IMG/VR virus record: IMGVR_UViG_3300006950_000006
Span: 1-23,807 of that record
Direction: 5' to 3' (one strand)
Origin: a virus
DNA length: 23,807 bases
Below the pieces are notes generated by a model. The model saw only the letters and a list, made by a program, of their open reading frames with translations. It did not search any database and was not told the origin of the DNA. This document shows positions 2,037 through 23,475 of the stretch, in pieces. A program made the translations under genes and the position numbers. Each line of letters opens with the position of its first letter. Position 1 is the first letter of the stretch.

Positions 2037-2072
2037 CAAATCTCACTATTCCTGGTGTGCTACTAAAGGACA
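2037..2072 (-). promoter_or_regulatory. late promoter P4 (lipoprotein unit)
   Basis: On the minus strand: box TGTCCTTTAG (2072-2063), an 18-base spacer, then GAGATTTG (2044-2037), a one-mismatch -7 box. The predicted transcript start is near 2031, about 30 bases before the ATG at 2002. This is the most divergent of the four copies, with G as last base of the box and GA for TA. Confidence 0.6.
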
Positions 2073-2081
2073 AATTTTACC

Positions 2082-2588
2082 TTAGTTAAATATTGCCTTT
2101 ATCCTTCCAAAATTCCTGTATCCCAGATATCCCAATACAATAAGAACCAACAGACCAATAATATAAAAGTAATATTTGACAGTCTGCTTCGTTGTTACGA
2201 CTGTTTTGGTTTGCTCCTTGCCTTGATTATCCAATTTTGAATTATCAAGATGGGCTGATTCGTCTTTTTTGGCTGAATCTACGACCGTTTTAACATTCTT
2301 CTTTTCTGCTTTTGTGGTCGTGGTAACGGTTTCGGATTTAACCGGAGGTTTACCGGTATCACCTACATTGGGTTTATCCGTATCGTAAACTGTTGTCTTC
2401 GTCACTGTTTCATTGTTGCTTTTGCTTTCGTCAATAACTGTTTTATTGACATTTACCAGACTCGCTTTCGTATCAGCGATTGAATTCTGCTGCGTTGTCT
2501 TTTGTTCAATTTTCGACTGTTGAACTGCCTTTTTTGAAGCGCAGGAAAATAACAGGGCTACAATAATGATGCTAATGATTTTTCTCAT
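2082..2588 (-). CDS. probable unimolecular spanin (lysis lipoprotein with C-terminal membrane anchor)
   Basis: This protein probably fuses the inner and outer membranes in the last step of lysis. It has 168 residues. The N-terminus is a lipoprotein signal ending in LLFSC (Cys16), which anchors it in the outer membrane. A long Lys/Thr/Gln-rich hydrophilic stretch follows (about 17-135), then one membrane segment (about 137-158, YIIGLLVLIVLGYLGY) and a short basic tail. An N-terminal lipobox plus a C-terminal membrane helix is the defining layout of one-piece spanins such as T1 gp11. The gene overlaps the holin by 4 bases and closes the lysis operon. The family assignment rests on topology and context, not on sequence recognition. 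Confidence 0.7.
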   Translation of the reverse strand: MRKIISIIIVALLFSCASKKAVQQSKIEQKTTQQNSIADTKASLVNVNKTVIDESKSNNETVTKTTVYDTDKPNVGDTGKPPVKSETVTTTTKAEKKNVKTVVDSAKKDESAHLDNSKLDNQGKEQTKTVVTTKQTVKYYFYIIGLLVLIVLGYLGYRNFGRIKAIFN

Positions 2589-2848
2589 TGAATTGGAATT
2601 ATTGGATTTGGTGGTGTTGGTGGTAAATTTTGAACCATTGTGCTGATTGCTTCATCTTTTTTGGCACTCGAGAGGCTGGAGCCAAAAAAATAACCGACAA
2701 CCATAGAAAATGCACTACCCAATACGCCCAGCATGATATTTAACGCATCAGGATTATTACCCTGTACAGCAAGGATAATGAGAACTGTGAAATATGAAAT
2801 CACAATTACTGCACCAAACGCGTACATGAATTTTTCTTTTATTTTCAT
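2585..2848 (-). CDS. holin-like two-helix membrane protein
   Basis: The 87-residue protein has two predicted membrane helices (about 8-28 and 34-57) joined by a short turn, a charged N-terminus (MKIKEK) and a hydrophilic proline-rich tail (PPTPPNPIIP). Size and topology fit class II holins, which open the inner membrane for the endolysin. It overlaps the glucosaminidase upstream and the spanin downstream, each by 4 bases (ATGA), implying translational coupling. Holins are not conserved in sequence, so context carries most of the weight. Confidence 0.75.
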   Translation of the reverse strand: MKIKEKFMYAFGAVIVISYFTVLIILAVQGNNPDALNIMLGVLGSAFSMVVGYFFGSSLSSAKKDEAISTMVQNLPPTPPNPIIPIQ

Positions 2849-3351
2849 ACCATTGCCCTTTCTACCGATCTGGCAACCGATTTTAAAAGCGATGCGTAAT
2901 TTGGATCTGTCGCGTATCCGGCCCTGGCAATTTCTTCAATGAACCGATCTGTATTTCCTTTAACCGTTAACGCTGTGGCGTATCGTTGATTTTTGAAAAA
3001 GAATTGCACATGATCTGTGAAGCATTGCTCCGGAGTATCATACTTACGAAAATAATCTTTGCACGTATATTTGAAATACTTTTGACCGTTCAGTGTGCAT
3101 GGAACTATTGAGATGATAACCGGAAACTTTAAATCTGCCCTGCGACTGTATTCTGTGGTTGTCAATAGTTGCTCATTGCCATTTACTCCATCCGTGTCCT
3201 TCACGCCAAAAAACATGTTCCCTGGTGCAAATTTTCCCCAGCCCGATTCAAGTGCTGCCTGGGCAAGGATGGCAATGGCGGTTATTCCGGTTTTGAGTTC
3301 TGTCTGCCTGGCAAACGGAAGGAAGGAGGTTACAAATTCTTTTGGTGTCAT
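2845..3351 (-). CDS. GH73-type glucosaminidase endolysin
   Basis: This 168-residue peptidoglycan hydrolase should cleave N-acetylglucosamine linkages at lysis. It is a single FlgJ/GH73-like domain. The family motif AQAALESGWG holds the catalytic Glu35, followed by NMFFGVK and the typical YFRKYDTPEQCFTDHVQFF stretch, and near the end the GYATDPNYA motif seen in these enzymes. No signal peptide or cell-wall binding domain is present, so export would rely on the holin encoded next to it. It overlaps its neighbours by 4 bases on both sides. Confidence 0.92.
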   Translation of the reverse strand: MTPKEFVTSFLPFARQTELKTGITAIAILAQAALESGWGKFAPGNMFFGVKDTDGVNGNEQLLTTTEYSRRADLKFPVIISIVPCTLNGQKYFKYTCKDYFRKYDTPEQCFTDHVQFFFKNQRYATALTVKGNTDRFIEEIARAGYATDPNYASLLKSVARSVERAMV

Positions 3352-3905
3352 TTAGCCTCGTTTTTTAAGATGTCTTTAATTTCTTTTTGCTCTTCGCCGT
3401 GAATATATTTTGTGTTCTGATCCACCTGCTCTTTGGTCACAATCCATTCCATGAAGTAGTGTTTTCCTGTCTCATAAGTTTTTACACCACCCACGACTGA
3501 CATGCAGCAAATCGCGACAAAAACAGGTATGGAAATAACTTTCCACTCGACTATGAATTTAATTGCATAAAGTAATTTTTTGAAGGGTACAATAAACTTA
3601 ATAGCCTTGATCTGTTCGTCAATATCATCAAGAATCAGATTGATCTCTTTTGTTGTGGTTTCCAATTTTGTTCCGATTGGACAATTTGTATAATGTGCAC
3701 CTTCAGCTTTGATAAGAGCTTCCAGCTTCTCTTTGATGAGATTAACCTCAGTACTCATTTTCTCACTGCTCTTTGTCATTTCGGATATCTGGTTTTTGAC
3801 AAGTTCATTTTGTTTATTAAACAATTTTTCAAAACCGTCAAACCGAAGATCCATCATTTTTAGTACATCTGCATCCATTATTTTGTATTTACGCCTTTCG
3901 GCCAT
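3348..3905 (-). CDS. coiled-coil membrane protein heading the lysis operon
   Basis: I do not recognise the family. I place the start at ATG 3905 (185 residues, MAERRKYK...), because the longer frame to 3977 would begin upstream of the late promoter at 3924-3959 and inside the preceding terminator. ATG 3878 is a possible shorter start. The N-terminal half is highly charged and likely coiled coil (about 10-110). One clear membrane helix follows (about 128-148, ISIPVFVAICCMSVVGG) and a charged tail ends the protein. It overlaps the glucosaminidase by 4 bases, so it belongs to the lysis transcription unit and could control holin timing. That role is inferred from position. Confidence 0.75.
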   Translation of the reverse strand: MAERRKYKIMDADVLKMMDLRFDGFEKLFNKQNELVKNQISEMTKSSEKMSTEVNLIKEKLEALIKAEGAHYTNCPIGTKLETTTKEINLILDDIDEQIKAIKFIVPFKKLLYAIKFIVEWKVISIPVFVAICCMSVVGGVKTYETGKHYFMEWIVTKEQVDQNTKYIHGEEQKEIKDILKNEAK

Positions 3906-3923
3906 CAGATTGCGTTTATATCT

Positions 3924-3959
3924 CAAACTTAATCTTTGCCAGCGACAGGTTAAAGGACA
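3924..3959 (-). promoter_or_regulatory. late promoter P3 (lysis operon)
   Basis: On the minus strand: box TGTCCTTTAA (3959-3950), an 18-base spacer, and the perfect -7 box TAAGTTTG (3931-3924). The predicted start near 3918 gives a leader of about 13 bases to ATG 3905. The box directly follows the T-run of the terminator of unit 2. Confidence 0.75.
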
Positions 3960-3992
3960 AAAAACCCGATCCATCATATGACAAACCGGGTT
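3959..3992 (-). terminator. terminator ending the tail-fibre unit
   Basis: On the minus strand, AACCCG (3992-3987) pairs with CGGGTT (3968-3963) around an 18-base loop containing CATATG, and the stem runs into six T residues. It lies 22 bases after the stop of the 120-residue gene and immediately before the late promoter of the lysis operon. Confidence 0.65.
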
Positions 3993-4013
3993 AAATGAAG
4001 CGCTAGAAGTGTT

Positions 4014-4376
4014 TCAATTCCTGCAATACACGATCTGTGGTTGCACCGGTCTCTTATAATCACCATACTCGATGCCTGATGAGTAAAGTGTTAATCGCTC
4101 TGGGAAAATTACATCGGTAATATTTTGAATGATTTCAATAGAGCTATCCTGAACCAGCAGTCTTTCCGGATAAATTGGGTCTTGTAGCACATATGCCTCA
4201 ATAGATGCTGCTCTCACCTCTATTATCTCACAGGCAGATCCAGTACCTGTATAGGTGGCAGCCCCTAATACTCCGATAAACTCACTACCTGGAGCATAAA
4301 CAACAGCGTTATAGGTAATACTGCCATTGATAACAATATACCGTTGCCCAGGGGAAATGGCGGTTACTATGTCCAT
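4014..4376 (-). CDS. small tailspike-associated protein
   Basis: I do not recognise a named family. The 120-residue protein has an N-terminal segment (about 11-54: RYIVINGSITYNAVVY, then FIGVLGAATYTGTGSACEI) resembling two stretches in the C-terminal half of the tailspike encoded just upstream. The pattern is hydrophobic-Tyr-Val, then ITYNG/A, then a Gly-x-Phe strand and a T/SGxG strand, suggesting a small beta domain used repeatedly in this host-binding apparatus. It overlaps the tailspike stop by one base and is the last gene of unit 2. A role as spike cap, chaperone or alternative tip is inference. Confidence 0.7.
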   Translation of the reverse strand: MDIVTAISPGQRYIVINGSITYNAVVYAPGSEFIGVLGAATYTGTGSACEIIEVRAASIEAYVLQDPIYPERLLVQDSSIEIIQNITDVIFPERLTLYSSGIEYGDYKRPVQPQIVYCRN

Positions 4377-6106
4377 TACTTAGCCTCCGATGCTGAAAGA
4401 AAATGTTTCACCTGTACGTAACGGGCAAATATTGTAAATCCCGTACGCGCTTTATTTGTAGCGTTATCATATTCAGGATGTCCGTTTGACAGTAATTTAC
4501 CGTCAGTACCGGTATCGATAGCTCCCATCGAAATATTTCCAATACGCTTAACCAGGATCGGAGCATTGATCACATACTCCCCCCAAACATCAGTATCATT
4601 AAATTCTTCAACACACTTTCCGCTGCCTGAAAACGATACTCTCCCAGCTATAGCCTGAAATACATCACCAATGCCAATATTCAAACCGTTCCAGGTGATC
4701 AGGTTGTCATATACACGATACCAGCTATTGACAGTTAGATTGGTACCCGCCGATATTTTAGCACCTGAAATTGACTGCTTAAATCGAATAAGATTGGTAT
4801 TGTTTTGAGCATTATTTATCACCTTATATAGTACGCCATTACCTGTGAAGGTATTTGTGTCAATTGCATAAATTCGGCTTCGGATGGGATATAATACAGC
4901 ATTATACAAAACGGTATCAACCTCATTAATGTAGATCATACCCGAGACCAAGGCCGTGCCAGCTGCAATTGGAGCAGTCATATCAATGGTCGGTGAGGCA
5001 TTTGGCATCTCACGGTTACGATCTGCGAAGGCAAAGCTCAACTGATTCGATTTGATTTCTTGAATTTTACCCAGATCCTTACTTTTCTCGGTGATATTCC
5101 CACCTCCAACAGCACTACCATCAACATTTCTGGCTAATGTGATTGAATTGTTTGCAACAATCACATTGGCTGACTTACTCGCATTATAGAAGGAGTTAGG
5201 GTGATCCTGATCGTTGGCATATGCATATGTCGGATATCCAACATCCTTTGCACCAATATACGTTCCATCATATGCCATATTACGTGCAGGACTATACGGC
5301 TTCAGACTATAATCATCCAGTGCAGAGTTATTAAAAAGTGGGTCAGCTACCAAGCAGGTCGGAAAAACATTAAATGTCCCAAACTTTGCATTATAGTAGG
5401 CTCTTATTGCATCTATTCCACTTACACCATAAAGAGATTCAATGTCTGCCTGAGTTTTATAAACCGTATCGGTGCCAAACTTGAACGTACAATTATAAAA
5501 CAGGTTGTAATTATTAGACAGCAGATACACAAAGGCATTTACAATCTCAATTTTGCAATTTGAAAAAATGCAAAATGTCATACCAGTTAGAGAGCTGGAT
5601 GTTGTCTGTAGAACTACCCAGCAGTTATCGAAAGTGCAGTTCTTTAATCCGTGTGAGGTAGTATTATAAAGAGACACCGACCTGCTTGCTGTCCCTGATA
5701 TCCCAATATTCTTAAAAATATTATTATTAACATTGATACTCGCCCCATCTATCTGGCTACCCGAAACGATGTCTTTTAGGATCGAATTTTGATACGAGCA
5801 ATTGGATAATGAGACTGCGTTTACCATTTTTATGCCTATAACTCTCTTTGCTTGTGTGTTTGCAAGGTATCCCACAGATAAGGTTAAATCGACAATAGAC
5901 TGCTCCCCAAATATATCCCCAGTATATGAAGGTGCCTCCCTATAAACACCCGGTCCAAGCTGAACGCTTGCTTTACCCGCATCTTTAGCCTTTTGCACTG
6001 TACGGTAAGGAGCATTCGCGCTCCCATCGTTACTATCACTGCCAAATCGGGATACGTAACATGCCGAAGTGAAATATGGGTTCTTAGTCCAGTTAAATAT
6101 TGCCAT
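4376..6106 (-). CDS. tailspike with right-handed beta-helix (pectate-lyase-like fold)
   Basis: This 576-residue protein is a probable receptor-binding tailspike that may degrade or bind surface polysaccharide. Near the N-terminus, YVSRFGSDSNDGSANAPYRT (residues 18-37) is the DUF1565-type motif that opens many parallel beta-helix proteins. Residues about 60-290 show the matching pattern of short strands rich in N, S, T, V, I and F (for example ILKDIVSG, NIFKNIGISG, CTFDNCWV). The rest contains two copies of a short beta motif (about 387-428 and 461-502) shared with the next gene. No catalytic residues can be assigned. The start follows the 86-residue gene by one base. Confidence 0.8.
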   Translation of the reverse strand: MAIFNWTKNPYFTSACYVSRFGSDSNDGSANAPYRTVQKAKDAGKASVQLGPGVYREAPSYTGDIFGEQSIVDLTLSVGYLANTQAKRVIGIKMVNAVSLSNCSYQNSILKDIVSGSQIDGASINVNNNIFKNIGISGTASRSVSLYNTTSHGLKNCTFDNCWVVLQTTSSSLTGMTFCIFSNCKIEIVNAFVYLLSNNYNLFYNCTFKFGTDTVYKTQADIESLYGVSGIDAIRAYYNAKFGTFNVFPTCLVADPLFNNSALDDYSLKPYSPARNMAYDGTYIGAKDVGYPTYAYANDQDHPNSFYNASKSANVIVANNSITLARNVDGSAVGGGNITEKSKDLGKIQEIKSNQLSFAFADRNREMPNASPTIDMTAPIAAGTALVSGMIYINEVDTVLYNAVLYPIRSRIYAIDTNTFTGNGVLYKVINNAQNNTNLIRFKQSISGAKISAGTNLTVNSWYRVYDNLITWNGLNIGIGDVFQAIAGRVSFSGSGKCVEEFNDTDVWGEYVINAPILVKRIGNISMGAIDTGTDGKLLSNGHPEYDNATNKARTGFTIFARYVQVKHFLSASEAK

Positions 6107-6107
6107 C

Positions 6108-6368: not shown

Positions 6369-6374
6369 ATCGTA

Positions 6375-9300
6375 CTAATTTAAAATTCCTGTAATGTTTA
6401 AAAATCCAGATGTTGCACCACCTGCAAAGGTTACCCGCCAATAAATGTCTGAATTCGCGGCTATGGACAATGGAAGTATCGCTGGCAAAAAGGTTATGCA
6501 ATCTAAAGAATACTCTGCCGTTGTGATTGATCGTTTATCCATCAATGAAAGCGTGCAGGCTCGTTTATAATAATCGCGGCAAATGGGTGATGCAACATCG
6601 TTGAATGAAATACATCTCATTACTGCTGTAGTGAGATTTACTGTAATATCCGATCCTGTGATATTCAAAAAACCAGTCGAAGCACCGGAGGTAAATGTAA
6701 TTTTCCAATAGATGTCCGAATTTCCGGTTATTGTCAGCGGGAGAACAACTGGCGAAAAGTTGACGCCTGTAAGGGAATACTCCAGGTTACCGATCCCCCT
6801 AAGATCTATTGCCGCAATCCTGAAGTCGTTTTTGTAGTAATCCCTGAAAATGGTGGCGATCGTATCGTTAAAGGAGATTGACCGGGTGATGTTTTTAAGG
6901 TTTATAACAGATAGATCCCATCCGTTAATGGCAACCGAACCATCTGCGGAGGTTAAGAACGAACTTCCATTAAGTCCTAAGAGTTTATCCCGTTCGGCCA
7001 GTGATAAATGGTAACCTCCGTTCCCGAGTATATTACTTAGTAAATTGTGATCACTTAATGAGCTGCTTATTTTAATCCATCGTCCCGGAGAGGCATCGGT
7101 TAAAATATCAACCGGTAAGATAACTGTTGTATTATTACTTACATCCAGACTTTCGTCATCGAAACGATAAAGCCCCATGGTTTCAATGAGCATTAACATG
7201 GCATCAGCCCTGGATGATGCACTCACGGCTTTTGCAGCTGCCAAATTTATAACTGGCACATGAATAGAACTGCCTACACCACTCATTGCATTTGAAACGG
7301 CTGTATCTAATTGCCCTTTATTAATTGCATCTGTCGGATCAACGCCGTCCGCCATCCTGATTCCTTTGTGATTGATAAAATCAAGATCTTCATCAACGAT
7401 CAGCTGATCGCTTGAATTAATGACAACTTTTTCAGGATCTACCTCTTCAATATTTTTAAGTAGTCCCTGTTCATTAACAGTCATCTTCACATGTTTCGAT
7501 GCAGATCCGTAATCACCAGGCGTGAGCAGCTCCACGGGTACCTGACTGGTATCATGCTGAATCCTGATCCGGTCAAAACTGATCATTATCCCATTTGGCC
7601 AGCTATTGGCCAGGGCAAAACGAACCTTGTCAACTGTATTTGAAACGAGCGCCAACAAAATAACCGGTACTGCTACTAATTGCCAGGCAGGATCTGCGCT
7701 GTTGAATCCGGCCATTCCTGCGCTTTTGGACATCACCAGGTGTCCTACTACAGCACCTTGGTTGTACAATTTCAGCGTCATAGCCGTATTTGACAGCCAT
7801 TCCACAGAACTTTTCATATAGAAAGAAAGAATCCCGTTTGTCATCTCAATTGCTGCAGGAGCATCAAAACTGATTGAAGTATTGAGAGGTGTATAAATAT
7901 CGACAGGAGTACCGGCAGAAAGAAGTTCATCATTAAAATATCGTACCGGAACTATACTGAAGTTGTTTGTTTTGTCTCTAACATATGTTGCTCCATTATC
8001 GAATGAAACACAATAGGCTTTCTTCCAGTCATCCGAACCGGTGACTTGATTACTTGTCCAGAATGCACCTTTGAAGTTTGGAAATAAACTTTTACGGAAA
8101 ACAAGTTGCTCCATGTCCATTTTAGAACCCAAAAACCAATCTGAAAAGCCGTCTTTCTCAAAATTTGCAGCATAGAAAGCGGCACATGTGGCATTCGCAG
8201 CATTTGCCATCAATATGATTGTATTTGCAGCACCGGCACCAACCGAAGTATCGGTAGGTCCTGACGAATGTGATTCTCCATATCTGACACCTGGGGATGA
8301 TGGTGATTCTGCCACAATATATCCGGACTTTGCACCTCTATTCAGATAATAGATAATCCCACCCTGGTATTTTTCTCCGACGAAATGAGTAGGTGTCGCA
8401 ACCGTTGTATCGGGTATACTTATTTGTAATTCAATATTTTTTGTTCCGCTTACCGGTTCCGTTGTATCTGCAAAATCAATTGAAATATCCGTATCGTGCG
8501 TTTCTGATGCTGGCCATTCTCCTGTTTCATCGTAAACAGCATCGACCGTCAATGAGGGTTCAGTTGCCCCTGCAGCAATAATAGCATAAGCGACTTCAAT
8601 CTGATTGTTTTCGACTGCCGGCTTCATCGGGATGGCTCCCGGAATTCCTTTTAATACGCCAATTTCGGATGAGGCATCAACGTAAAATACATCAATGCGT
8701 GATAGGTTAGGATCTGGAGGTTCGAGCGTGACACTTTGCGGACTAATCTGATAATCTTCACCTAAGATTTTGTAAACGAGCTTTGTGCTTTGGTAAGTTA
8801 ATCCGGTTTCCCAGATCACCGCGCCACTGATCAGTACAGTCCGGGTATCTGGTATCGTAGTGTCGGTATTGAGCGCAATAAAATCCTTGATGGCCTGCCA
8901 GGTGAAATCGTCAATACCACCAATTCCAAGGGCCATCAATTTGCCATCCTTTACGGTGATCGTTCGATCGTCAACCAGTTCAGGTAATGCTCCGGACCAA
9001 AGTTCTGCCATTGACAGTTTACGCCACCCTAATGCAAACGGACTCTGAACAGCCAGGAGAAGGTTGTTCTGATAAAGAGCTGAAGGCAGTCCCGCCAGCA
9101 GCTCAGCTAAAAAAAAATCAGCAAGCCCCTCCGGCGCCTGTAGATTTAAAATGCGATCGATATTGAGAAGTTTTGAATCTTCTCCGTATCTGAATACAAA
9201 CTCATAATCAAATACATCATCCTGAGTGGTACCCACCACTTTTGAAGAAATAACTGCAATCTGTTTGAGTGATCCATCTATCCGGATTGCGTATTTTTTT

Positions 9301-10181
9301 CGGGAAACAAAAAAATCTTTTATCCAGGCGTTCTCATCCACATCGAGGAATCCGGTTGATTGTTTGACATCCCTATCTTTATCAACATCATATTCAGCAA
9401 CTGATTCATCGCCATACTCAGCCATTTGATGCGTGAGTTTCTGATCTTCTTCCTGTGCACCTGTGAACGACATCGAATCGATTGCTCCCAGCGAATTCCA
9501 CCATACAAATGCGTATTCATCCTCGCTGGCATTTCGAAGTTTATAGCGATGAACTGGTGTTTTTTGTACTCCGCCAACTTCAAACCAAACATCCCACGCA
9601 ACTGCCTGACTATTTTGTCCGGCTGCCACCAGCCATGCCGAAATAACTCCCCAGCTTGTATTGATGCTGTATAGTTTATCCTGGGCAGGAGTCGCGTAAT
9701 TTCCTGTGTAAGTGGTACCGTTTGAATAATATGCCTTTAATCTGACTGTTCCGGCTGAAATCGGATAGATTCCAAGCCATTCTGGAGCTGTTTGAAGGAT
9801 TGATTTTTCCTGTGGTTGCCAGGTTAAGAAATGAGTGGCCAGCCATGTAGTAGCGGTTTCCTGTAATTCCGATACCCCACCTTTTATCACTTTAAATGCA
9901 ACGTTTACACCATCGATTGTAGCAGTGAAAGATGCAACAGTCAACGTTTGTTCGTTGATAATATTTTGATTGGCAGGGATGGAGATATCAAGCAATCGCT
10001 CAATGATGGTCTTTACATCGACAGAAACAATTCCGGATGCATCGGGATTATACTTTTCGCTTAGTATCAGCGTTGCACCTTTCTTTAATTCAAAAACAAC
10101 TTCCACCAATGATGTAACCCGGAAAGGTTTCAGGTTGCCCGAAAAGGATAACGCATCTGGTTGCTGGCTGATTACACTCAT
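6375..10181 (-). CDS. giant tail-tip / fibre protein with C-type-lectin-like (DUF1566-like) domain
   Basis: At 1268 residues this is the largest gene here and probably the main host-recognition protein at the tail tip. Residues 1-330 (MSVISQQPDALSFSGNLKPF...) resemble an adsorption-apparatus attachment region. Residues about 598-750 look like a DUF1566/C-type-lectin fold: GGIIYYLNRG, GYIVAE, GVRYGE, DGFSDWFLGSK, AFWTSNQ and FSIVPVRYF appear in the right order. The C-terminus holds two diverged tandem repeats (1099-1187 and 1188-1268), each with ISFND, RDYYK, EYSL, NSDIYW and GFLNITG. It heads unit 2, with late promoter P2 just upstream. This lectin-like fold is a frequent target of diversity-generating retroelements, but no reverse transcriptase is present in the window. 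Confidence 0.85.
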   Translation of the reverse strand: MSVISQQPDALSFSGNLKPFRVTSLVEVVFELKKGATLILSEKYNPDASGIVSVDVKTIIERLLDISIPANQNIINEQTLTVASFTATIDGVNVAFKVIKGGVSELQETATTWLATHFLTWQPQEKSILQTAPEWLGIYPISAGTVRLKAYYSNGTTYTGNYATPAQDKLYSINTSWGVISAWLVAAGQNSQAVAWDVWFEVGGVQKTPVHRYKLRNASEDEYAFVWWNSLGAIDSMSFTGAQEEDQKLTHQMAEYGDESVAEYDVDKDRDVKQSTGFLDVDENAWIKDFFVSRKKYAIRIDGSLKQIAVISSKVVGTTQDDVFDYEFVFRYGEDSKLLNIDRILNLQAPEGLADFFLAELLAGLPSALYQNNLLLAVQSPFALGWRKLSMAELWSGALPELVDDRTITVKDGKLMALGIGGIDDFTWQAIKDFIALNTDTTIPDTRTVLISGAVIWETGLTYQSTKLVYKILGEDYQISPQSVTLEPPDPNLSRIDVFYVDASSEIGVLKGIPGAIPMKPAVENNQIEVAYAIIAAGATEPSLTVDAVYDETGEWPASETHDTDISIDFADTTEPVSGTKNIELQISIPDTTVATPTHFVGEKYQGGIIYYLNRGAKSGYIVAESPSSPGVRYGESHSSGPTDTSVGAGAANTIILMANAANATCAAFYAANFEKDGFSDWFLGSKMDMEQLVFRKSLFPNFKGAFWTSNQVTGSDDWKKAYCVSFDNGATYVRDKTNNFSIVPVRYFNDELLSAGTPVDIYTPLNTSISFDAPAAIEMTNGILSFYMKSSVEWLSNTAMTLKLYNQGAVVGHLVMSKSAGMAGFNSADPAWQLVAVPVILLALVSNTVDKVRFALANSWPNGIMISFDRIRIQHDTSQVPVELLTPGDYGSASKHVKMTVNEQGLLKNIEEVDPEKVVINSSDQLIVDEDLDFINHKGIRMADGVDPTDAINKGQLDTAVSNAMSGVGSSIHVPVINLAAAKAVSASSRADAMLMLIETMGLYRFDDESLDVSNNTTVILPVDILTDASPGRWIKISSSLSDHNLLSNILGNGGYHLSLAERDKLLGLNGSSFLTSADGSVAINGWDLSVINLKNITRSISFNDTIATIFRDYYKNDFRIAAIDLRGIGNLEYSLTGVNFSPVVLPLTITGNSDIYWKITFTSGASTGFLNITGSDITVNLTTAVMRCISFNDVASPICRDYYKRACTLSLMDKRSITTAEYSLDCITFLPAILPLSIAANSDIYWRVTFAGGATSGFLNITGILN
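6378..6887 (-). repeat. tandem protein repeat in the fibre C-terminus (two units)
   Basis: Two in-frame units of 89 and 81 codons (6887-6621 and 6620-6378) encode clearly related sequence. The shared order of motifs is ISFND, RDYYK, EYSL, LPL, NSDIYW, TF..GA and GFLNITG. The DNA has diverged, so the duplication is not recent. Confidence 0.85.
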
Positions 10182-10196
10182 TTATTCTATTTTTCT

Positions 10197-10232
10197 GCAA
10201 TATAACTGAGATAGAGTGCGTGTTAAAGGACA
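10197..10232 (-). promoter_or_regulatory. late promoter P2 (tail-tip / fibre unit)
   Basis: On the minus strand: box TGTCCTTTAA (10232-10223), an 18-base spacer, and TATATTGC (10204-10197) as a -7 box. The predicted start near 10191 gives a leader of about 10 bases to ATG 10181. The spacer resembles that of P1 (xACxCxCTC near its start, TTGCA at the -7 box). An 8-bp inverted repeat AGTGCGTG / CACGCACT (10215-10238) brackets the box core. Confidence 0.7.
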
Positions 10233-10236
10233 CGCA

Positions 10237-11874
10237 CTACGCTGTAAACCCCTCAATTTTCACGATGCCTTTATGAGGAAGTTCAAAGTATATTTTATCC
10301 ATTATAACTTCATTACCGTCGACTACATACTTTTTGTCGAATCGAAGTGATAGTACTTCGACCAATGTGAGCTGAATGTATTTTGTGAAGGCGCGGGCAC
10401 GGTAGGCTTTCCATTCAAGGAAATCTTTATACAATTGCAAATACAAATATTCGGGGGCCAGGTAGGTTGTCAAACCAATAGACCATCCATCAGCGATACC
10501 CCACCGATCACCTGAAGAATATGGAATCATTACTCCGTTCACTTCCTTCCTTCCATGATAGATCGCAATAATCATATCAGTTAAGGCATCAAATGCATAA
10601 GATCGATTTAAAGGTTTTATTTCAGCTTTTGGTACTGGATATCCATCTTCATGCGCAACCATTTTTGGAATTTTAACTTCAAGTTCAACCTTTTCGGATC
10701 CCGTTCCCTCAGAATATTCTTTAAGACGTCCGATTTGATTCCACTCTAATACTTCTCCATTTAGTACAGTGATATAATCACTTTGAAGCATTGTTACTTT
10801 TACAATCTCATCCTCAATGGTTGGTGTTGGCAAAAAGCTTACTTCCCTGTCAGGTATATAGTCTGATTTAGTATCAAGGCTATCATCCTGTGCAGCGTAT
10901 TTAATAGTAAACCCTCCCGGCTGACTTTCTTCGTTGTGTTGCCATCCTGTTAACTCTACAATCTTCAATGAGTCAATATTATCCGCTTTAAAAATATTCT
11001 TCTTAAACAGTATCCTTACAGTCTTTTTTCGCTCATCAATATCGAACATGACACAAAACATTTTTGCCATAGTATCAACGAATTGTAAAACATAAACATC
11101 AGGCATTAAATATGAATAATAGAGATTGCCAGTTTGTTCAAGTCCGGGGATTCCAAAGTGAACCGAAGCATACCGGACATTAATTATCCGTGAATACATA
11201 ACAGAACCACTGAATTCACTTGTTTTCAATTCGTCCACCAGAATTGTATAACCAGCGCTTTCAAAGATCTTCTCTAGTAAAAAATCAATTCTGAACTGTA
11301 ACATATACAGGTTTGTATTTTGTCTTGTACCACCTGTATTGTATGTTAGTTTTCCAGTTAATTTATCGACCTTATTCACATATTCTGTTAGATAACTTAC
11401 TGCAGAATTAATTGAAGTTGGCGGAACAAAATATTTTCCGTTACTGGTTGTATTCGCAGCATCCCACTCCAAAAGCTTTGCTGTCACTTGTTGTGTTGTA
11501 AATTGTGCCGGAAACCAACTTTCTGAACCATAGCCGATATCTGCCAATTTCTTTCCAGACATGTGATTCCTGAATTCGGTAATACCAGATTTCAGTATTA
11601 TGCCAATTTCATCCTTTGTTACCTGACTGTAATCTACAACTCCACGCATCACCTGAAGTCCCTGATCTTCCAAGATAAACGATTGATCAGCGATATCCCC
11701 TGCACGCTGCAGACGTCCGGGCCATCCTAAATCTTGTTGGTTTGGATAGGTAGGTACTGGGAACGGAAAAGAGAAAGATCCGGTATCTTCATTTAATGCC
11801 GGTGATGAACGCGTGATGCTGATTCTCGCATCCAACTTTAGTGCAACTGGTTTTCCTGCGATGTTTAGCTTCAT
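10237..11874 (-). CDS. probable tail hub / distal tail protein
   Basis: This 545-residue protein directly follows the tape measure (4-base overlap) and precedes the fibre unit, the normal place of the distal tail or Tal-type hub protein in siphophages. It starts [20 protein letters not shown] and continues with a beta-rich N-terminal domain, then a mixed central region ([20 protein letters not shown]) and a C-terminal region ending in [13 protein letters not shown] recognise the general type from Bacteroidota prophages but not a named family. It carries no membrane segment or obvious enzyme motif. It is the last gene of unit 1, and its stop codon lies inside the inverted repeat at promoter P2. 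Confidence 0.7.
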
Positions 11875-14800
11875 GATTTCTTGGTGACTTTTGAGTTAAA
11901 TTTATTCACACTATCGATTCCATCAGACAGCGAATTATTTCCAAACATTGGAATATATGCAGGGATCCCGTTTCTGAGTTGTTTGTTTAATTCGAGGATT
12001 GCAGCCTTTAGTTCCGGATCGGTTCCCCCTGCAGGGTTTGTATTCATTTGCCCAGATGTATCTACAGATGCATAACCACCCTTGGAAAAACCACCAGACT
12101 GGCTCATCGAACTTAAATTAAGCCTGGCTAAACTATTATTACGTCTGGCTTGCTCGAACATGTTTATCATTGGTCTGAGTTGCGGATTATTTACACCCTC
12201 TTGTGGAATGACATATTCACCTTTATGAACTACCCCTGCTGGTTCATATTTGCCTCCATCACCAGTATAGCCACCAACTGCAAGTGATTTCATTTTATTT
12301 CTTTCTGACACTGCCATAGCCAATTGAACAGCACCGGTTGCACCAATAAAAACAGCTGCAATTGCTCCGCCAATTGGTCCCAACTGTGCAAAAGACTGCA
12401 TAATCCCCAAGGCAGTAGAGGTAATGATTTGACCAATAGTAACGACCATCTGTGCGTCAGCATATTTTTTCCGGATCTTTTTTTTCTTCTCCTCGTTGTC
12501 TCCAGCTTCAGCAAGCTCTGCCTCCATTAGTACGCTTACAAAGTTGGCAGCTGCAGAAGTTATTTTCTGATATTTCTCCCAGCTTTCAAGATCACCCTTG
12601 CTTTTATCTTCAGCTGCTTTTTTTTGTATTTCAACAATTTTATCCTGGAACTCCTGTTCTGATATTAATCCGGCTTCATGCTGGGCCATTGCCAGTGTTT
12701 GCTGCCCTTCGGTTGTTTCGTAATACTTTTTCAGCGCATAATCATAGGCTGTATCTACCTTCTCCTTTTCAGGGGTCATTAAATCAGTAAGTAGACTGGC
12801 ATCCGCCTTCGCTGCTATTAACTCATCTTCTATTCCTTTTTGCATGGCAGCTACTCCATCCTTACCTAATTTATGCAACTCAGATCTTAGAGCATCTTGC
12901 TGTTCAGTATTATCGAGCTCAAAGAATTCGCGAAGTTTTTCGGCATCCGTTTTTTTAGTCTTCTTCCCATCTCCAGTACCAATATCAGTGCCTGTACCAT
13001 CTCCGGTAATAGTATTCGTTCCTCCTGATGTATTAGTCGATGTAGGTGATGTAGTTGTTGAAGTTACCTCCTGATCTAAGATTTCCTGAAATTTAGCCTT
13101 ACGTATTTCCAGCTCCTTAATTTTCTTCTTTTGATTTTCCAGTGTTCCTTGTTCTTGTAATGTCTTATATCCAGGTGTTTTTTTACCCGATGTAAATGCT
13201 TTTCCCATTGTTTGAAAAAATCCAGCTTCTTCACCAACACCCGATTTTAAAAGTCCAATTTCTTTGTTGGCATCCTTTAGATTTTCGGTTGCTGCCTCTA
13301 TTCTCGCTTTCTTCTCCAGGCTTGCAATATATTGATCTGTCGCAATAGTTGCAGCTTTTGTATTAATCGTTTCGAGGTTTAACCCGGAAAGATATTCAGG
13401 AGATAACTTATTGAGTTTTTCAATTGCTGCTTGCCTGGTTTCTTTTGATAATACTTCGTTTTTTGCAACCCTTAATAGTTGTTCCAGTTCAACTTTTTCA
13501 TCAATGATACTTTGCTTTGCTTTGATATTGATATCATTTAATGCCTTTTGAGCTATCTCTGCTTCAGTCATTTTACGGGTATACAAGTACAATGCAGCTC
13601 CTGCAGCAATCAATAGTCCAACTATAATACCGATTGGATTTAACTTCTGTGCAAGGTTCCAGGCATTTTGAGCGACGGTTGCCAGGGTGATTCGGCCAGT
13701 GAGTACACCAACAGTGTATTGATATGCTTTTGTGATTGCGGTTTTTGCTACCAGGTAGCCATATTGGATGTTATCCCAGTAGGCTGCAATTTTCACAACG
13801 GCCACATAACCGGCAATGGTTGCCGATACCGATACGATTGCAAATCCGTATTTTGTAAAGAAATTTATCAGCACGATTGTAACTGATAACATCTTACCAT
13901 ACCATCCTGTAATAGTAGCCATTGCAGGCGCCAGTTTCTCTCCCAGTTCTATAGAGATAATAGTAATCCTATTTTTTGCCTGGGCAAGTCTTGCATTATT
14001 ATTGTCTGTATTGGTAGCAGCCTGTATCATTGCTACATTGGTCCCGGTAACAGCAGTTGTTAGTTTGTCGTATTTCTCAACATTTTGAAGCAAAACAGAT
14101 CCAACAGTAATATTCTCAATTCCGAACACTTTTTGCTTGAGTGCATCCTTTTCTGAGGCCAATGTCTTTTTCTCTAACTGAGCATTAACTTCTATCAGGG
14201 CATCCCTAATATTGAATTGTCCGCTGGCATAACCAACTCCTGCATCTTTCATTTTAAGCAGAGCACCACGAAGTTTTGTGCCGGCTTCAGCTCCTTTTAA
14301 TTGCTTTTCTCCAAGAACCTCCAATGCTGCAACCGTTTGTTCAAGACTCATGTTTGAATCTGCAGCAACGGTACCAACATTCTTTAATGATTCAGTAAGG
14401 TCAGCGACTTCAGCGCTTCCCTCCAGTGAACCGGCAGCAATTGCATTGATGATCCGATCCGATTGCGATGCATCCAGGTTAAACTGATTCATTGCAGCTG
14501 CTACGGCGTCAATAGCAGGAACCATCTCTATTTTTGATGCTTCTGCAAGTATCAGCGCTTTCTCAGTTACCTGAGCAAGGGCTTCTTTATTCTTTAATAA
14601 TTCGGGTCGCGCGGATCCCATCTTTGTGAAACCATCTACAATGTCCTGGGCGCCTTTGGTGATTTTTATTCCTCCTTCGAGGGTTGCTGTACTAAGTTCT
14701 TTGGCCTTTTGTGTCAGCCAGTCAAGCGCGCCACCTTTCAATCCAGTTAGTGCAGACAGGTTTGAAACACGCTCCTGGAAGTCGTTGAAACTTTGCACCA

Positions 14801-15305
14801 CCTGTTTAAATCCAAGCGCAATACCGGTGAATGAGGCAATAACAGCCATTGCTATTCCCAGATACCTATTGAAACCGTCAGCAATTCCACTAAGTGACCA
14901 TGATTTACTTGTTGCTTTTGTTTCTGCATTGATATCTGCCAGGGCAGTTTTCACTTTTTTTAATTCCGCTGATTTTTTTAGGTACTCTTCAGTACCGCGT
15001 GTCATTCCCTTTAGCTGATTGGTTATGGTGCTCTGAGCTTTCTGCAGATCACGCCAGCTTACTTTATTGATATCTTTCAGTACGCGTTCAACGTCAAAGG
15101 TTTCTCTTTTCAAACTGCGTTGTGTTGCCTCGATGGTTGAAAGTTCCTTTTTCAGCTTGTCAAACTTAACATTGTCGCCCGCCTGCAGGGCACTCGTCAG
15201 ATCTTTTTTAAGTTCTTTAGATTTTCTGTCCAAAGCCTCCAATGCAGCTTCTGCCTGTTTTCCATCCAGGTATACTGTTGCCCTTGCGGTTTCATTTTGT
15301 GCCAT
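11871..15305 (-). CDS. phage tail tape measure protein (TP901 core family)
   Basis: This protein sets tail length and is probably released during DNA entry. At 1144 residues it would correspond to a tail of roughly 170 nm under the usual rule of about 0.15 nm per residue. Residues 1-130 are coiled coil. Residues about 181-358 match the TP901 core region ([63 protein letters not shown]). Hydrophobic segments lie near 148-168, 475-512, 558-580 and 955-1003. A Thr/Gly/Ser-rich low-complexity linker covers about 743-783, and the tail shows the typical GGYTGDGG / [10 protein letters not shown] motif. It overlaps the gene before it by 14 bases and the hub gene by 4. Confidence 0.95.
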
Positions 15306-15678
15306 CTGTGGTTATATTGGTAATCATTAATATTTGAGCTTTGTGGGCATATTTATCACGAAGTATTTCACCAATGCGCTTTATTTGAGAGAAGAATGTA
15401 CGCGAATACCATGGTTTTGCTTTACGGTTGCTGCTATCCACCTGGTCCATTTTAACGCCATTGCCTACACCCATATCTACGAACTTACCGTAATAATTGA
15501 ATGCAAATTCAATCTTATCAGGGTCGCCGTTTGCCTGAGTGAATACATGCACCGCAAAGCTGTTGGCAAGGTTGCCGGTTTGGTGGATACGAAGCATGGT
15601 AATCTTATTTTCCCAGCGTTCAACTACGATCTTTGCCCAAGCTTCAACAGTAAGTGAAAGGTTCGTATTATCGGCCAT
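15292..15678 (-). CDS. neck / tail-completion protein, HK97 gp10-like
   Basis: The 128-residue protein has the layout of HK97-gp10-type head-tail joining proteins: an N-terminal helix ([16 protein letters not shown]), a GNLANSF strand region, FVDMGVGNG, and a helix after [19 protein letters not shown]. The pairing of a FVDMG-type motif with a closing KPW...F helix is typical. It lies 3 bases after the preceding gene and overlaps the tape measure by 14 bases. The place directly before the tape measure is normally taken by the tail tube and its chaperones, which are not seen. Confidence 0.7.
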
Positions 15679-15681
15679 CTG

Positions 15682-16146
15682 TTAGATTTCAAAGTTTTCA
15701 TTTTTCATTATGAACGAAAATGAATAGCCATAATACCCATTCCCAATGGGTCCGAGTTTAGCGAAGTCGATCCTGCTCCGGTCGAATCCAAAAGCGATGT
15801 CACCGAACTCACCTGCATCTTTTATAAGTTGACTGAAGAATTTCTTTCCCAGGGAAAAGGTTACTTCCTGGGCACGTCTCCGATCGGCGCTATCGTTCAG
15901 TTTTACCTTGTCGAAAAAGTAAACAGTATTGTATTCGTTTGCAAAGTTTCCATTCTCCAGGTCAAGATAACCATCGGCGCTATCCTCCACCACGAGCACC
16001 GGCGTTGCCGGGCTGCGAAGGTTTTGCAACATCCCTTCCATTTCAGCCAGTCCGGAGCAGGCGTATATTGCCTTGATTTCGGGCATTTGTGCTGCACGGC
16101 TTTTTGCGAATTCGAGTGCGTCAAACATGGCTTTGCTGATTTTCAA
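15682..16146 (-). CDS. probable tail terminator / completion protein
   Basis: This is a 154-residue protein of mixed helix and strand: an N-terminal helix, strands around TPVLVVEDSADGYLDLENG, a long helix (RRAQEVTFSLGKKFFSQLIKDAG), then strands ending GYYGYSFSFIMK. That order and the length are compatible with gpU-like tail terminators, which cap the tail and join it to the head. The start overlaps the previous gene by 26 bases; an internal ATG at 16128 would shorten the overlap to 8. The assignment rests on size, predicted fold and position. Confidence 0.65.
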   Translation of the reverse strand: MKISKAMFDALEFAKSRAAQMPEIKAIYACSGLAEMEGMLQNLRSPATPVLVVEDSADGYLDLENGNFANEYNTVYFFDKVKLNDSADRRRAQEVTFSLGKKFFSQLIKDAGEFGDIAFGFDRSRIDFAKLGPIGNGYYGYSFSFIMKNENFEI

Positions 16147-16888
16147 GTTTCTGATTCAGTTCGTAGAACACCTCATGCACATGCGTGTGGAGAATCTCTT
16201 TATTTCGGGTTACATCGCCATTGTTCAGCGAGGTGAATAACCGTAGGATGTGCTCATCTGGTGATGGTGCCGAAGTTTCGCCGGTGGTACCATCACCAAA
16301 CACATAGGGGTATTTATCGATAATCCATTTCTTTAATCCGGAAAACCAGATATAAACGGCTGTTTTCGCGTGATTGGGAACCGAGCGCAGGATATTGACA
16401 TACATTTTGTATTTGCGTTCATTCCATTTTTCACCAGGCTTCCGATAGAATACTGCTATCAATTGATTCAGATCATCTACTTTTTTACTCGCTGAATAGT
16501 TGGCATAAAGCTGATCAGCCAACAGGTATTCTTCGAGTGTGACACCAAACAACCTGGAATCAACTGGGGATAGTCCTCCGAGTTTTTCCGGCAGGCGACA
16601 GAGACCAACACTATCGATCAGCCAGCGCAATTCATCCAGCAGGCTTTTCATCTCTTCAGCTGACAATGAAAAGACTTCGCCGGCAGGATCCAGAAATTCA
16701 AAAAGCAATTCACCATCACCAGTTTCTAAACCATGTTTTACAGGTTCAATACCAGTGAAGCTGATCATACATTTTGTCAGGAATTCAGCTTCTGATAGTT
16801 GTTCTTCAAATAACAGGGCCACAAACAGGAGTTGTTCCGGTGTAATATCATGCCATCCGGACGGGGCATGTAAATGTATTTCTCTCAT
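16121..16888 (-). CDS. unrecognised structural or assembly protein between connector and neck genes
   Basis: I do not recognise this 255-residue protein. It is acidic and rich in helices (ITPEQLLFVALLFEEQLSEAEFLTKC, AEEMKSLLDELRWLIDS, TLEEYLLADQLYANY), with no membrane segment or signal peptide. It overlaps the connector gene by 4 bases upstream and the terminator candidate by 26 downstream, so it is part of the morphogenesis operon. A helical, non-structural assembly factor such as a tail chaperone is possible. It does not look like a beta-rich tail tube or a capsid protein. Confidence 0.7.
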   Translation of the reverse strand: MREIHLHAPSGWHDITPEQLLFVALLFEEQLSEAEFLTKCMISFTGIEPVKHGLETGDGELLFEFLDPAGEVFSLSAEEMKSLLDELRWLIDSVGLCRLPEKLGGLSPVDSRLFGVTLEEYLLADQLYANYSASKKVDDLNQLIAVFYRKPGEKWNERKYKMYVNILRSVPNHAKTAVYIWFSGLKKWIIDKYPYVFGDGTTGETSAPSPDEHILRLFTSLNNGDVTRNKEILHTHVHEVFYELNQKLENQQSHV

Positions 16889-17724
16889 AATCCAGCGAAA
16901 AATAAAGGTGAATCAGCATTGTTGATGATCGGAATCTTTTGTGCGGCAGTCCAATTCGTATAAATTTCACTGTCGCGGAACAAGGGATATTTATCAGGTG
17001 AAGTATAAAGCAACCTACGGACCCGCGAGAGATAGGACTGTGCAGTTTCTTCCTGCTTCATTGTGAAATTGGCGAATGCAAACCGAAGGTTCTCGAGAAT
17101 CGTTTTATTATCTGCAGTAAGATCTCCATCGCGCAGCTGCTCTACTACCTGATCAGATAATTCCTGGCTGATCACAGGGGCTATCTTCAGGTTAATGGCA
17201 TTTAGCATTTCGGGCTTCAGCGCCATAAATTCGCGACGGCTGCCGGGGTAAACCACATAACGCCGGAATTCTTTTACGGTTGTGAGATAGAGATTTGAAA
17301 GCAGGGTATAGGCGGGACTTCCTTTCCACTCATCGTGATAATCGACCGTTTCTTCCAGGTACTCGAGTAACGACTCTACCGCTTCATCAAGTTTCCGGTA
17401 GGTTGCAGATTGCAGCGCTGCAACACGTGCCTGTGATGCCGGTGCAAGATTTGGATTGCTCACCACAGCAAAACCTGATTCATTTTCTACCAGGTCGAAA
17501 AATGGGATCCCATCACCATATGCTTTATAGGCGACAATTGCCCTGGCATAGTTCAACAACGCTTCGTCCTCCTCGCTGATGATTAGAAAAAGTTCTTTGC
17601 CGGTAATCTCCTTTATTAACCAGGATTCAGCATCGGCAATGTATTTTTCATACTTTGCAAAATCAGCTGAAAAGATTGTCGGAATATACTGCTTTAAAAC
17701 ATCAATACTGCCAATGATTACCAT
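16885..17724 (-). CDS. DUF6712-type head-tail connector candidate
   Basis: The 279-residue, mostly helical protein matches the pattern I know from DUF6712 proteins of Bacteroidota phages: IPTIFSADFAKYEKYIADAE near the start, ALLNYARAIVAYKAY, GFAVVSNPNLAPAS, LLEYLEE, YHDEWKGSPAYT and EFMALKPEM. Members lie after portal or head genes and probably act as adaptors. Here it starts 3 bases after the portal stop, so the head genes that would normally sit between them are absent. The C-terminal motif SYLSRVRRLLYTSPDKYP lies around residues 235-253. Confidence 0.8.
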   Translation of the reverse strand: MVIIGSIDVLKQYIPTIFSADFAKYEKYIADAESWLIKEITGKELFLIISEEDEALLNYARAIVAYKAYGDGIPFFDLVENESGFAVVSNPNLAPASQARVAALQSATYRKLDEAVESLLEYLEETVDYHDEWKGSPAYTLLSNLYLTTVKEFRRYVVYPGSRREFMALKPEMLNAINLKIAPVISQELSDQVVEQLRDGDLTADNKTILENLRFAFANFTMKQEETAQSYLSRVRRLLYTSPDKYPLFRDSEIYTNWTAAQKIPIINNADSPLFFAGL

Positions 17725-17727
17725 AGC

Positions 17728-19077
17728 CTATTTATTTACAGCAGTTTCCTGCCCGGTTTTATTTTTATCGAGTGTTGTGAAAACAGGTTCAGGAATTGCA
17801 AATACAATGTCCTTATCCCATTTGTTATAGAGCTTTATCAGTTCGAGCGGTTTCAACAGCCGGTCACGGAAGGGCTTCATCAGGGCTTGTTTGATCTGGA
17901 AGAGTTCCCGTTTATCGGTACCTGACTGGCTCCCGGAATTTTTCCCTGGAACAGATCCGATCAATGAAGGATGAACACCCATCGCGTAGCTGATGATGTT
18001 ACTGACTTCTTCCGAATCTTCGAGGTATTCACCACCGGCGATCTCTGTTTTGAGTGGAACGATCTCGATGTACTTTTCTTCAGTGGACGAGGTACCCGAA
18101 GCAATCAATTTTTTCAAGGCTACAATTCCTTTCCCGGCATTCTTCTCTCCAGCAAGGAAGTCACGAAAGCGGCCATACTCCAGGGCTTTTCTTGCTTTCA
18201 TCGCTTCAACATTGGAAGTGTCGATACCTTCATCTTTAAAGATTTCTGTAAAATACTTATCAGACAAATAGATGATATACTTTAATGCCAGCTGATTCTT
18301 CAGCAGCGCCTTCTTAAATTCGGGGATCATCATCAGGAAGTCGTACCATCCGCTTAGAAATATACTCCACCAGTACGGATCCTGATAATAGGTTTTCCCG
18401 GGAGTAGGGAAGTTGACCGGAACAATAAAACGCAGCTGGGAGTAACTGCCGGTACTTATCCTTGATACAAGATCCTGGTATGGGTTATAATTATTGAGAA
18501 CATCTGACTCAGCAATCGTCGCTTTATTCGCTCCATCGTTCCACTTTGCAGAATAGTAGTGCTTTGTGATACAACCTTTTTTAGGATCCATTACACCCCA
18601 CCTGGAGAATGCTGCCTCCTTACTCCGGAGTGAAACGATTTTACGCTTATCACCGCTCAGGATGATCTCCGGAAATACATTGTAAAAGTGATGCATGTCG
18701 GAGAGTTGTTCCAGGAAGAAACCGTTGATATCGTTTTGTGCAAAGAAATCAACCACTTCGCCTTCATAGATCTCCTCATAACCTACCAGTTTATTCCCCT
18801 CAATAATCCTGCGCATGGGTTTGATGCCTTGTCCATAACCAGATTGGATATTAAACAGCAGGTTCGATTGTACGATTTCGCTCTTTTTGGCTTTCTCAAT
18901 AATGAGCTGTGGCATATCGTTGGTTGATCCCCAGGGAGAAATTGTATAGCCATCAACCGATACTGGCTTCAGGTCTGTTGCTTCTGAAAACATTTCACGG
19001 CTCGATTCCATCGCTATGATAGCCTTCGCTTCAGGGAGGTAGGTAAAACCACCAATCTCTATAAAATTATCACTCAT
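17728..19077 (-). CDS. phage portal protein
   Basis: Portal proteins form the dodecameric ring through which DNA enters and leaves the head and to which the tail attaches. This 449-residue protein has portal-like features: N-terminal SPWGSTNDMPQLI, a helical stem region around FLSGWYDFLMMIPEFKKALL, and the diagnostic C-terminal stretch near residues 370-400 (MGVHPSLIGSVPGKNSGSQS followed by DKRELF), ending in a helix with FRDRLLKPLELI. The length is normal. It overlaps the small gene before it by 4 bases. A portal without adjacent terminase, protease and capsid genes is unusual. Confidence 0.88.
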   Translation of the reverse strand: MSDNFIEIGGFTYLPEAKAIIAMESSREMFSEATDLKPVSVDGYTISPWGSTNDMPQLIIEKAKKSEIVQSNLLFNIQSGYGQGIKPMRRIIEGNKLVGYEEIYEGEVVDFFAQNDINGFFLEQLSDMHHFYNVFPEIILSGDKRKIVSLRSKEAAFSRWGVMDPKKGCITKHYYSAKWNDGANKATIAESDVLNNYNPYQDLVSRISTGSYSQLRFIVPVNFPTPGKTYYQDPYWWSIFLSGWYDFLMMIPEFKKALLKNQLALKYIIYLSDKYFTEIFKDEGIDTSNVEAMKARKALEYGRFRDFLAGEKNAGKGIVALKKLIASGTSSTEEKYIEIVPLKTEIAGGEYLEDSEEVSNIISYAMGVHPSLIGSVPGKNSGSQSGTDKRELFQIKQALMKPFRDRLLKPLELIKLYNKWDKDIVFAIPEPVFTTLDKNKTGQETAVNK

Positions 19078-19295
19078 AGCGTAACCTCCTCTCCATTGAA
19101 TTCGATGACCGAAAGCCGGCGCACTTTGCGGATCTCCTCACTGTCGCAAAACTTCAGGTTCATTGTCCGGCCTGCAGAGTGAAACGAAGTGCAGATGCAG
19201 CGCGGACCATGGATGATGGCGCCGCTCTTCTCAACGAATTTGATTGAGAATTCGCCGAGTTCTACTACCTTGTGTAATTGTGAAATGTGCAGCAT
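19074..19295 (-). CDS. small first gene of the structural operon, function unknown
   Basis: The 73-residue protein is not one I can name. It contains FSIKFVEKSG, CICTSFHSAGRTMNLKFCDS and a basic stretch EEIRKVRRLSVIEFNGEE, suggesting a small beta-rich fold. It starts at ATG 19295, about 13 bases after the start predicted for late promoter P1, and overlaps the portal by 4 bases. Small proteins in this place occur before portals in other Bacteroidota phages as far as I recall, but their job is unknown. Confidence 0.7.
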   Translation of the reverse strand: MLHISQLHKVVELGEFSIKFVEKSGAIIHGPRCICTSFHSAGRTMNLKFCDSEEIRKVRRLSVIEFNGEEVTL

Positions 19296-19296
19296 A

Positions 19297-19324
19297 GCTT
19301 ATCTTTTTTTATTGCAAGATAAGC
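19297..19324. repeat. 9-bp perfect inverted repeat at promoter P1
   Basis: GCTTATCTT / AAGATAAGC with a 10-base spacer lies immediately before ATG 19295. One arm covers the predicted -7 box of P1, so the RNA would begin inside the repeat. It is therefore more likely an operator or chance symmetry than an RNA hairpin. Confidence 0.6.
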
Positions 19325-19349
19325 GGGAGTGAGGGTGTATTAAAGGACA
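19314..19349 (-). promoter_or_regulatory. late promoter P1 (portal-tail operon)
   Basis: On the minus strand: box TGTCCTTTAA (19349-19340), an 18-base spacer, and TATCTTGC (19321-19314) as -7 box. The predicted start near 19308 leaves a leader of about 13 bases before ATG 19295. It follows directly after the terminator of the cargo gene, so the 9-kb structural operon needs its own promoter here. Confidence 0.75.
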
Positions 19350-19359
19350 AACAGGGCAT

Positions 19360-23437: not shown

Positions 23438-23475
23438 AAAAGTATCCCTCATTAAAAAAGTCCACTGAAAATTAG

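Follow-up and report, generated by a model that had tools for sequence, protein, structure and literature searches.

The stretch analysed here (the window) is a 23.8 kb fragment (23,807 nucleotides, nt) of a phage record, IMG/VR virus record IMGVR_UViG_3300006950_000006, whose minus strand encodes portal, DUF6712, tape measure, fibre-like and lysis genes, with an integrase gene on the plus strand at its left end. The features under study lie on the minus strand: the window holds four boxes reading TGTCCTTTA[A/G], all on that strand, each exactly 18 bases 5′ of a TAnnTTTG/TTGC-like box. Judged by sequence and placement, these are almost certainly real late-gene promoters. A sequence-only reading of the window had placed the boxes at 19349-19340, 10232-10223, 3959-3950 and 2072-2063 on the minus strand, with an 18-base spacing, -7-like octamers and first genes starting at 19295, 10181, 3905 and 2002; the positions, strand, spacing and octamers are borne out at all four sites, and the gene starts are consistent with them. 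The sites, with two neighbouring hairpins, are as follows.

19352-19371, minus strand: terminator-like hairpin directly 5′ of predicted late promoter 1 (consensus scan only)
19340-19349, minus strand: upstream box TGTCCTTTAA of predicted late promoter 1, core at 19342-19349, about -40 to -33
19314-19321, minus strand: -7 element TATCTTGC of predicted late promoter 1, predicted +1 at 19309
10223-10232, minus strand: box TGTCCTTTAA of predicted late promoter 2 (motif count against shuffles, near-relative alignment)
10197-10204, minus strand: -7 element TATATTGC of predicted late promoter 2, predicted +1 at 10192
3963-3992, minus strand: terminator-like hairpin directly 5′ of predicted late promoter 3 (consensus scan only)
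3950-3959, minus strand: box TGTCCTTTAA of predicted late promoter 3, same site in G008:27775 and L499:17870
3924-3931, minus strand: -7 element TAAGTTTG of predicted late promoter 3, predicted +1 at 3919
2063-2072, minus strand: box TGTCCTTTAG of predicted late promoter 4, same site in one relative, L499:19525
2037-2044, minus strand: -7 element GAGATTTG of predicted late promoter 4, its first T replaced, predicted +1 at 2032

The units behind these sites contain the following genes.

19074-19295, minus strand: first gene of unit 1, small protein before the portal, in the same place in L001-L008 and in distant relatives
17728-19077, minus strand: portal protein gene, unit 1 (tblastn to the annotated portal of Polaribacter phage Leef_1)
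16885-17724, minus strand: DUF6712 protein gene, unit 1 (Pfam PF20459; the post-portal gene of Leef_1 is annotated as adaptor)
11871-15305, minus strand: tail tape measure gene, unit 1 (Pfam PF10145, phrog_28)
6375-10181, minus strand: first gene of unit 2, encoding a large fibre-like protein (sub-threshold Pfam matches to Lcl_C and YadA_stalk)
3348-3905, minus strand: first gene of unit 3, 185 amino acids (aa), start at 3905
2845-3351, minus strand: glucosaminidase (lysis) gene, unit 3 (Pfam PF01832)
1598-2002, minus strand: unit 4 gene, 134 aa

The string TGTCCTTTAR was found four times in the window against 0.17 expected, a count reached in none of 100 dinucleotide shuffles, and the full layout, TGTCCTTT-N21-AnnTTKS, was likewise found four times against 0.01 expected. 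The -7 elements begin with TA in three of the four sites and have a correctly placed TT in all of them. At the -33 position of the sigma-ABfr promoter there is no TTTG, and all four boxes carry TTTA at N19 from the -7 element; the sequence-only reading that the box takes the place of TTTG stands as regards the missing motif and is refined in that the TTT of the box falls at about the -33 TTTG place (TTTA-N19-TAnnTT). Its predicted transcript starts, near 19308, 10191, 3918 and 2031, are each one base from the recomputed ones. As it also stated, two boxes lie directly 3′ of a terminator-like hairpin (19371-19352 and 3992-3963), in a window whose 20 such hairpins are close to the 17.1 expected by chance. 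At the portal promoter (19298-19321) the -7 element is one arm of a short inverted repeat (TATCTT...AAGATA) that surrounds the predicted transcript start and is retained in the close members of the clade.

Near relatives of the window, that is nine contigs with a DUF6712 protein 90-96% identical, carry the box before the same genes wherever they reach the sites. At promoter 1 (six sequences) all 10 box columns and all 8 columns of the -7 element are invariant, compared with 1 of 40 upstream and 3 of 18 in the spacer; at promoter 2 (five sequences) the counts are 9 of 10 and 5 of 8, compared with 0 of 40 and 0 of 18. Promoter 3 is also present in G008 and G453 and promoter 4 in G453, the last being weak evidence because the spacer there is identical. 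The capsid unit of this clade, which lies outside the window, shows AGTCCTTTAA-N18-TAACATTG before its protease gene.

Beyond the clade, the 10-mer proposed from the window's sequence is only in part the element: the box itself is real, its last two bases differ among phages and the conserved core is the 8-mer TGTCCTTT, at about -40 to -33, followed by 20 bases and a host-type -7 element. The whole 10-mer was rejected for this variable tail; exact scans of viral contigs for it at N18 and N16 gave hits mostly inside reading frames by chance, and its intergenic matches preceding a gene came from the window's own clade and L020. Across phages the base after the TTT of the box is free, whereas TGTCC is retained. 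In L010, a Bacteroidales prophage whose portal is 45% identical, TGTCCT-N22-TAATTTTG precedes the portal and fibre units and TGTCAT-N22-TACCTTTG the protease. Among 31 phage contigs (the window and 30 others chosen for containing one paired site), the combination of TGTC[CA]T and a following TAnnTT[T/G] occurred 83 times at N22 against 1-7 times at every other spacing from 10 to 35, and the same count made without the 9-mer used for selection gave 33 at N22 against about 4.

The spacing is also tied to gene starts. In a scan of the viral collection with TTTG at the right spacing (the totals of the scan and of its control are lower bounds), a start codon lay within 45 nt in 69 of the 112 listed non-redundant sites, against 4 of 69 with a control spacing two bases shorter (Fisher p 5e-15). 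We aligned 188 sites, each selected for its box plus a start codon, from contigs partly picked by box and -7 element and from regulator-profile loci (described below) that were not; positions +28 to +35 from the box read T (76%), A (82%), any, any, T (85%), T (93%), T (79%), G (79%), which agrees with the -7 consensus TAnnTTTG, and the distance to the start codon peaks at +40. The mapped -7 element of Flavobacterium johnsoniae is T-12 A-11 T-8 T-7 T-6 G-5 (PMC6847099), and as its G lies at -5, +40 is the expected transcript start and the box falls at -40 to -33. Roughly one in three of the 188 sites has its start codon 39-42 from the box, within two bases of the predicted start (e.g. L460:19667 and L108:2475), a pattern that, as far as sequence can tell, suggests leaderless late mRNAs. 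In B. thetaiotaomicron about 3.7% of 5′ leaders are under 10 nt (PMC7366714), and the comparison with a third of near-leaderless sites raises a question of how such messages are translated.

In annotated phages the core behaves in the same way: all four copies of TGTCCTTT in Bacteroides phage BT-TP2, all three in P. gingivalis phage 019a and all six in Leef_1 lie on the late strand, 40-70 nt 5′ of annotated genes. The four boxes of BT-TP2, whose host is B. thetaiotaomicron, stand at 6028, 10591, 17977 and 25811 of PQ571279. The -7 elements of Leef_1 and of phage Mea-Yong924-1 mostly keep the last four bases and not the TA, resembling site 4 of the window, and most Leef_1 elements lacking TA is why a first scan of that genome with a strict TAnnTT missed its boxes. 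Mea-Yong924-1 (L457, MZ447863), whose listed host is Microcystis, has four TGTCCTTT and one TGTCCTTA placed likewise, as well as two TGTCCTTT on the opposite strand; either phages of hosts outside Bacteroidota also use the layout, or Mea-Yong924-1 really infects a Bacteroidota companion. The pattern TGTC[CT]TTT at the right spacing to TTTG/TTGC was found 102 times in 1.26 Mb of box phages and not at all in three Bacteroides phages of a different kind (B124-14, Versailles and half of crAss001) or in 1.04 Mb of other viral contigs. Across 393 Bacteroidales genomes there were 32 hits to the paired pattern and no fewer to its backwards control, so the layout is not enriched in these genomes as a whole. 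Two of the tests proposed with the sequence-only reading came out in its favour: the layout is present before late genes in related and distant phages, and it is not enriched in Bacteroidales genomes. Copies of the same site precede several of the late units and keep to the late strand, as expected of activator-dependent late promoters; promoter candidates for early or opposite-strand genes were recognisable in eight cases only, too few to compare with the late ones.

Taken together, we consider that TGTCCTTT-N20-TAnnTTTG is probably the late promoter of a large temperate siphophage lineage of Bacteroidota, working through a phage activator and the host sigma factor. The two least credible alternatives can be set against the geometry already described. 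That the box is an operator, packaging or recombination site standing by chance before late genes is a general possibility that we regard as hardly credible, given the fixed spacing to the -7 element and the start codon and the several copies, on one strand only, each preceding a gene. A dedicated phage sigma factor reading both boxes would suit a two-box layout with fixed spacing, and the sequence-only reading had left open a dedicated sigma factor or an activator; this sigma factor is very unlikely, as the -7 element is the same as that of the host primary sigma, no common sigma gene was found and the candidate protein discussed below (about 160 aa) has no sigma match beyond chance in Pfam or NCBIfam. 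With a -7 element of the type read by the host primary sigma, the layout is better explained by an activator standing in for the -33 contact than by a new sigma factor, and a family of helix-turn-helix (HTH)-like proteins is common among these phages.

An ordinary host promoter with a strong -33 region, where the primary sigma would read TGTCCTTT directly and timing would come from antitermination or repressor release, has two points in its favour: the position of the TTT roughly coincides with that of the described -33 TTTG, and the -7 element is of host type. We think it quite unlikely: usually a base other than G follows the TTT, the Bacteroidales genomes show no excess of the paired pattern, three other Bacteroides phages lack the layout and an 8-base box goes well beyond the -33 element mapped in F. 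johnsoniae, which is faint (PMC6847099).

To find a protein that accompanies the box, we clustered the genes of 32 contigs, which share a common late gene set with TerL, portal and others in 30-31 contigs. After profile iteration one family of 160-190 aa, encoded 5′ of the protease gene or adjoining capsid genes, was present in 28 of the 32, and of the widespread families only this candidate regulator is encoded ahead of the late genes. The window, itself a fragment, does not contain the regulator gene, which is present in its near-identical relatives:

L014:12554-13120: candidate regulator gene of the window's clade

The family also occurs in MT835542, L010, Leef_1, BT-TP2 (gp8) and 18 P. gingivalis phages, with a weak match (E 1.6e-5) in Mea-Yong924-1. 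A tblastn search of the phage collection with the 188-aa regulator of the window's clade gave no match, while another family member matched 24 records. Searched for by protein alone, the regulator turned up in 35 of the 393 Bacteroidales genomes and in 3 of 247 genomes of Bacteroidota, and within 20 kb downstream of 35 profile-found regulator genes TGTCCTTT occurred 41 times on the same strand and 10 times on the opposite one. At the regulator loci the -7 element stood at N22 in 25 cases, at N23 in 16 and at any other spacing in at most 4. Box-plus-TTTG/TTGC sites numbered 97 downstream of the regulator gene and 6 upstream, the six being in contigs where the regulator is far from the contig start and probably reflecting permuted ends. 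Variation in the box partly follows the protein: three regulators on one branch (support 91, three rows; L479, L481 and L486) pair with TGTCTTTT and two others (L475 and contig G448) with TGTCCTAT, at the same spacing.

Comparison of the regulator with Pfam, NCBIfam, PHROGs and PDB sequences gave no match with a meaningful E-value. Its AlphaFold (AF2) model is confident (pLDDT 95), and the last three helices (79-161) resemble the HTH domains of homeodomain, TnsB, sigma region 4 and MntR proteins with Z of 3-5; the likeness to sigma region 4 is among the points that a phage sigma factor could claim. A first search of PDB structures returned no match under E 1, a second comparison returned middling HTH-like matches only (best Z 4.9), and in BFVD the Leef_1 member alone matched under E 0.001. 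The single invariant residue of the family, R139, is on the last helix. The modelled fold suggests that the C-terminal half is HTH-like and may bind DNA.

On balance we favour this protein as the activator of the box, and with about the same leaning we propose that the undescribed family and TGTCCTTT-N20-TAnnTTTG form one conserved late-gene switch, dependent on a phage protein, in phages of at least two Bacteroidota classes (Bacteroidia and Flavobacteriia). A switch that works across two classes would depend on a phage protein rather than on host regulators. From the layout, the spacing, the conservation, the late-strand position and the company of the protein family, all read in the sequences, we infer the transcription start, protein-DNA binding, activation and host sigma use as follows. 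From a gene immediately 5′ of the capsid module the phage would make a small HTH-like protein (about 160-190 aa); this would bind TGTCCTTT at -40 to -33 and recruit the host RNA polymerase, whose primary sigma (sigma-ABfr type) would read the -7 element TAnnTTTG/TTGC. Transcription would start 40 bases after the box begins, in many cases at the A of the start codon or no more than two bases away from it, and with the capsid, portal and tail, fibre and lysis units each under a promoter copy of their own, one protein could switch all of them on together.

Several observations weigh against this assignment. Scores for the resemblance to HTH domains are weak, and the true fold may be a different one; among the long box contigs, three (G417, G428 and G447) yielded no match to the regulator; and TGTCCTTT is missing from four of the 20-kb regulator loci, of which three have TGTCTTTT and one CGTCCTTT, spaced in the same way. 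The chief objection is that box, regulator and capsid genes are inherited together: the association of the regulator with the box could be common descent, and co-occurrence by itself is no proof of a link. Structural families, TerS, protease and portal among them, are equally widespread. Another phage protein might drive the late promoter, be it a late structural or packaging protein that binds DNA, such as TerS, or activators differing between sub-lineages (e.g. a LuxR/GerE-type protein near the repressor), which we hold to be unlikely though a serious alternative. With 29 and 26 contigs, the TerS-like family and several small late proteins match the candidate in spread, and a GerE protein is encoded in the early region of G002/G006 and in Leef_1. 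However, TerS lies 3′ of the first late genes and would need prior late transcription, GerE scores above the cut-off in just 9 of 50 box contigs (some of which are fragments) and the widespread family encoded before the late genes is the candidate. LuxR/GerE as a common factor was rejected on that count; such regulators lie in the early region at L014:1294-1842 and L108:19714-20301 and are not common to all phages.

At the right end of the window (22569-23807), positions 22569-23171 match the relatives' large terminase at residues 341-541 only (97% identity), and the N-terminal part of that protein is not encoded in the remaining 636 bases up to the end of the window. Possible explanations are an insertion, an intron or a chimeric contig end; Rfam found no known intron there.

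We found no description of late-gene activation in these Bacteroidota phages in open-access papers: the P. gingivalis phage paper mentions neither promoter nor regulator, and a literature search for the TGTCCTTTA string gave, among the matches listed, papers unrelated by title. Bacteroidota are a dominant gut bacterial group, and a box with fixed geometry together with one candidate protein makes the proposed late switch of their phages testable with a phage already available, BT-TP2, in a Bacteroides laboratory strain. If the proposed switch is true, late units could be annotated in uncultured phages from sequence alone, an unnamed protein family would gain a function and Bacteroides would gain a phage-specific expression switch.

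The closest host counterpart is the sigma-ABfr promoter (-33 TTTG, -7 TAnnTTTG), which is alike in the -7 element and in its place relative to the predicted start; here, however, the -33 TTTG is replaced by the 8-base TGTCCTTT at -40 to -33, and the sites belong to phage late genes and are not enriched in the host. Small phage proteins such as P2 Ogr, Mu C and RinA/ArpU activate late transcription via a common site, and the system proposed here is alike in combining a small activator with a common late site, but site and spacing differ and the candidate is without a Pfam or NCBIfam match. In the middle promoters of T4 a MotA box is combined with the host -10 element, the phage box replacing the host upstream element, and the likeness lies in a phage-specific upstream box with the host sigma keeping the downstream element. 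In contrast to T4, the genes served would be late and not middle ones, the hosts are Bacteroidota and the candidate has no detected relation to MotA; we know of no AsiA-like partner for the box system. Activator-driven late promoters of phages are already known, whereas this element and its protein family are new to the open-access literature searched.

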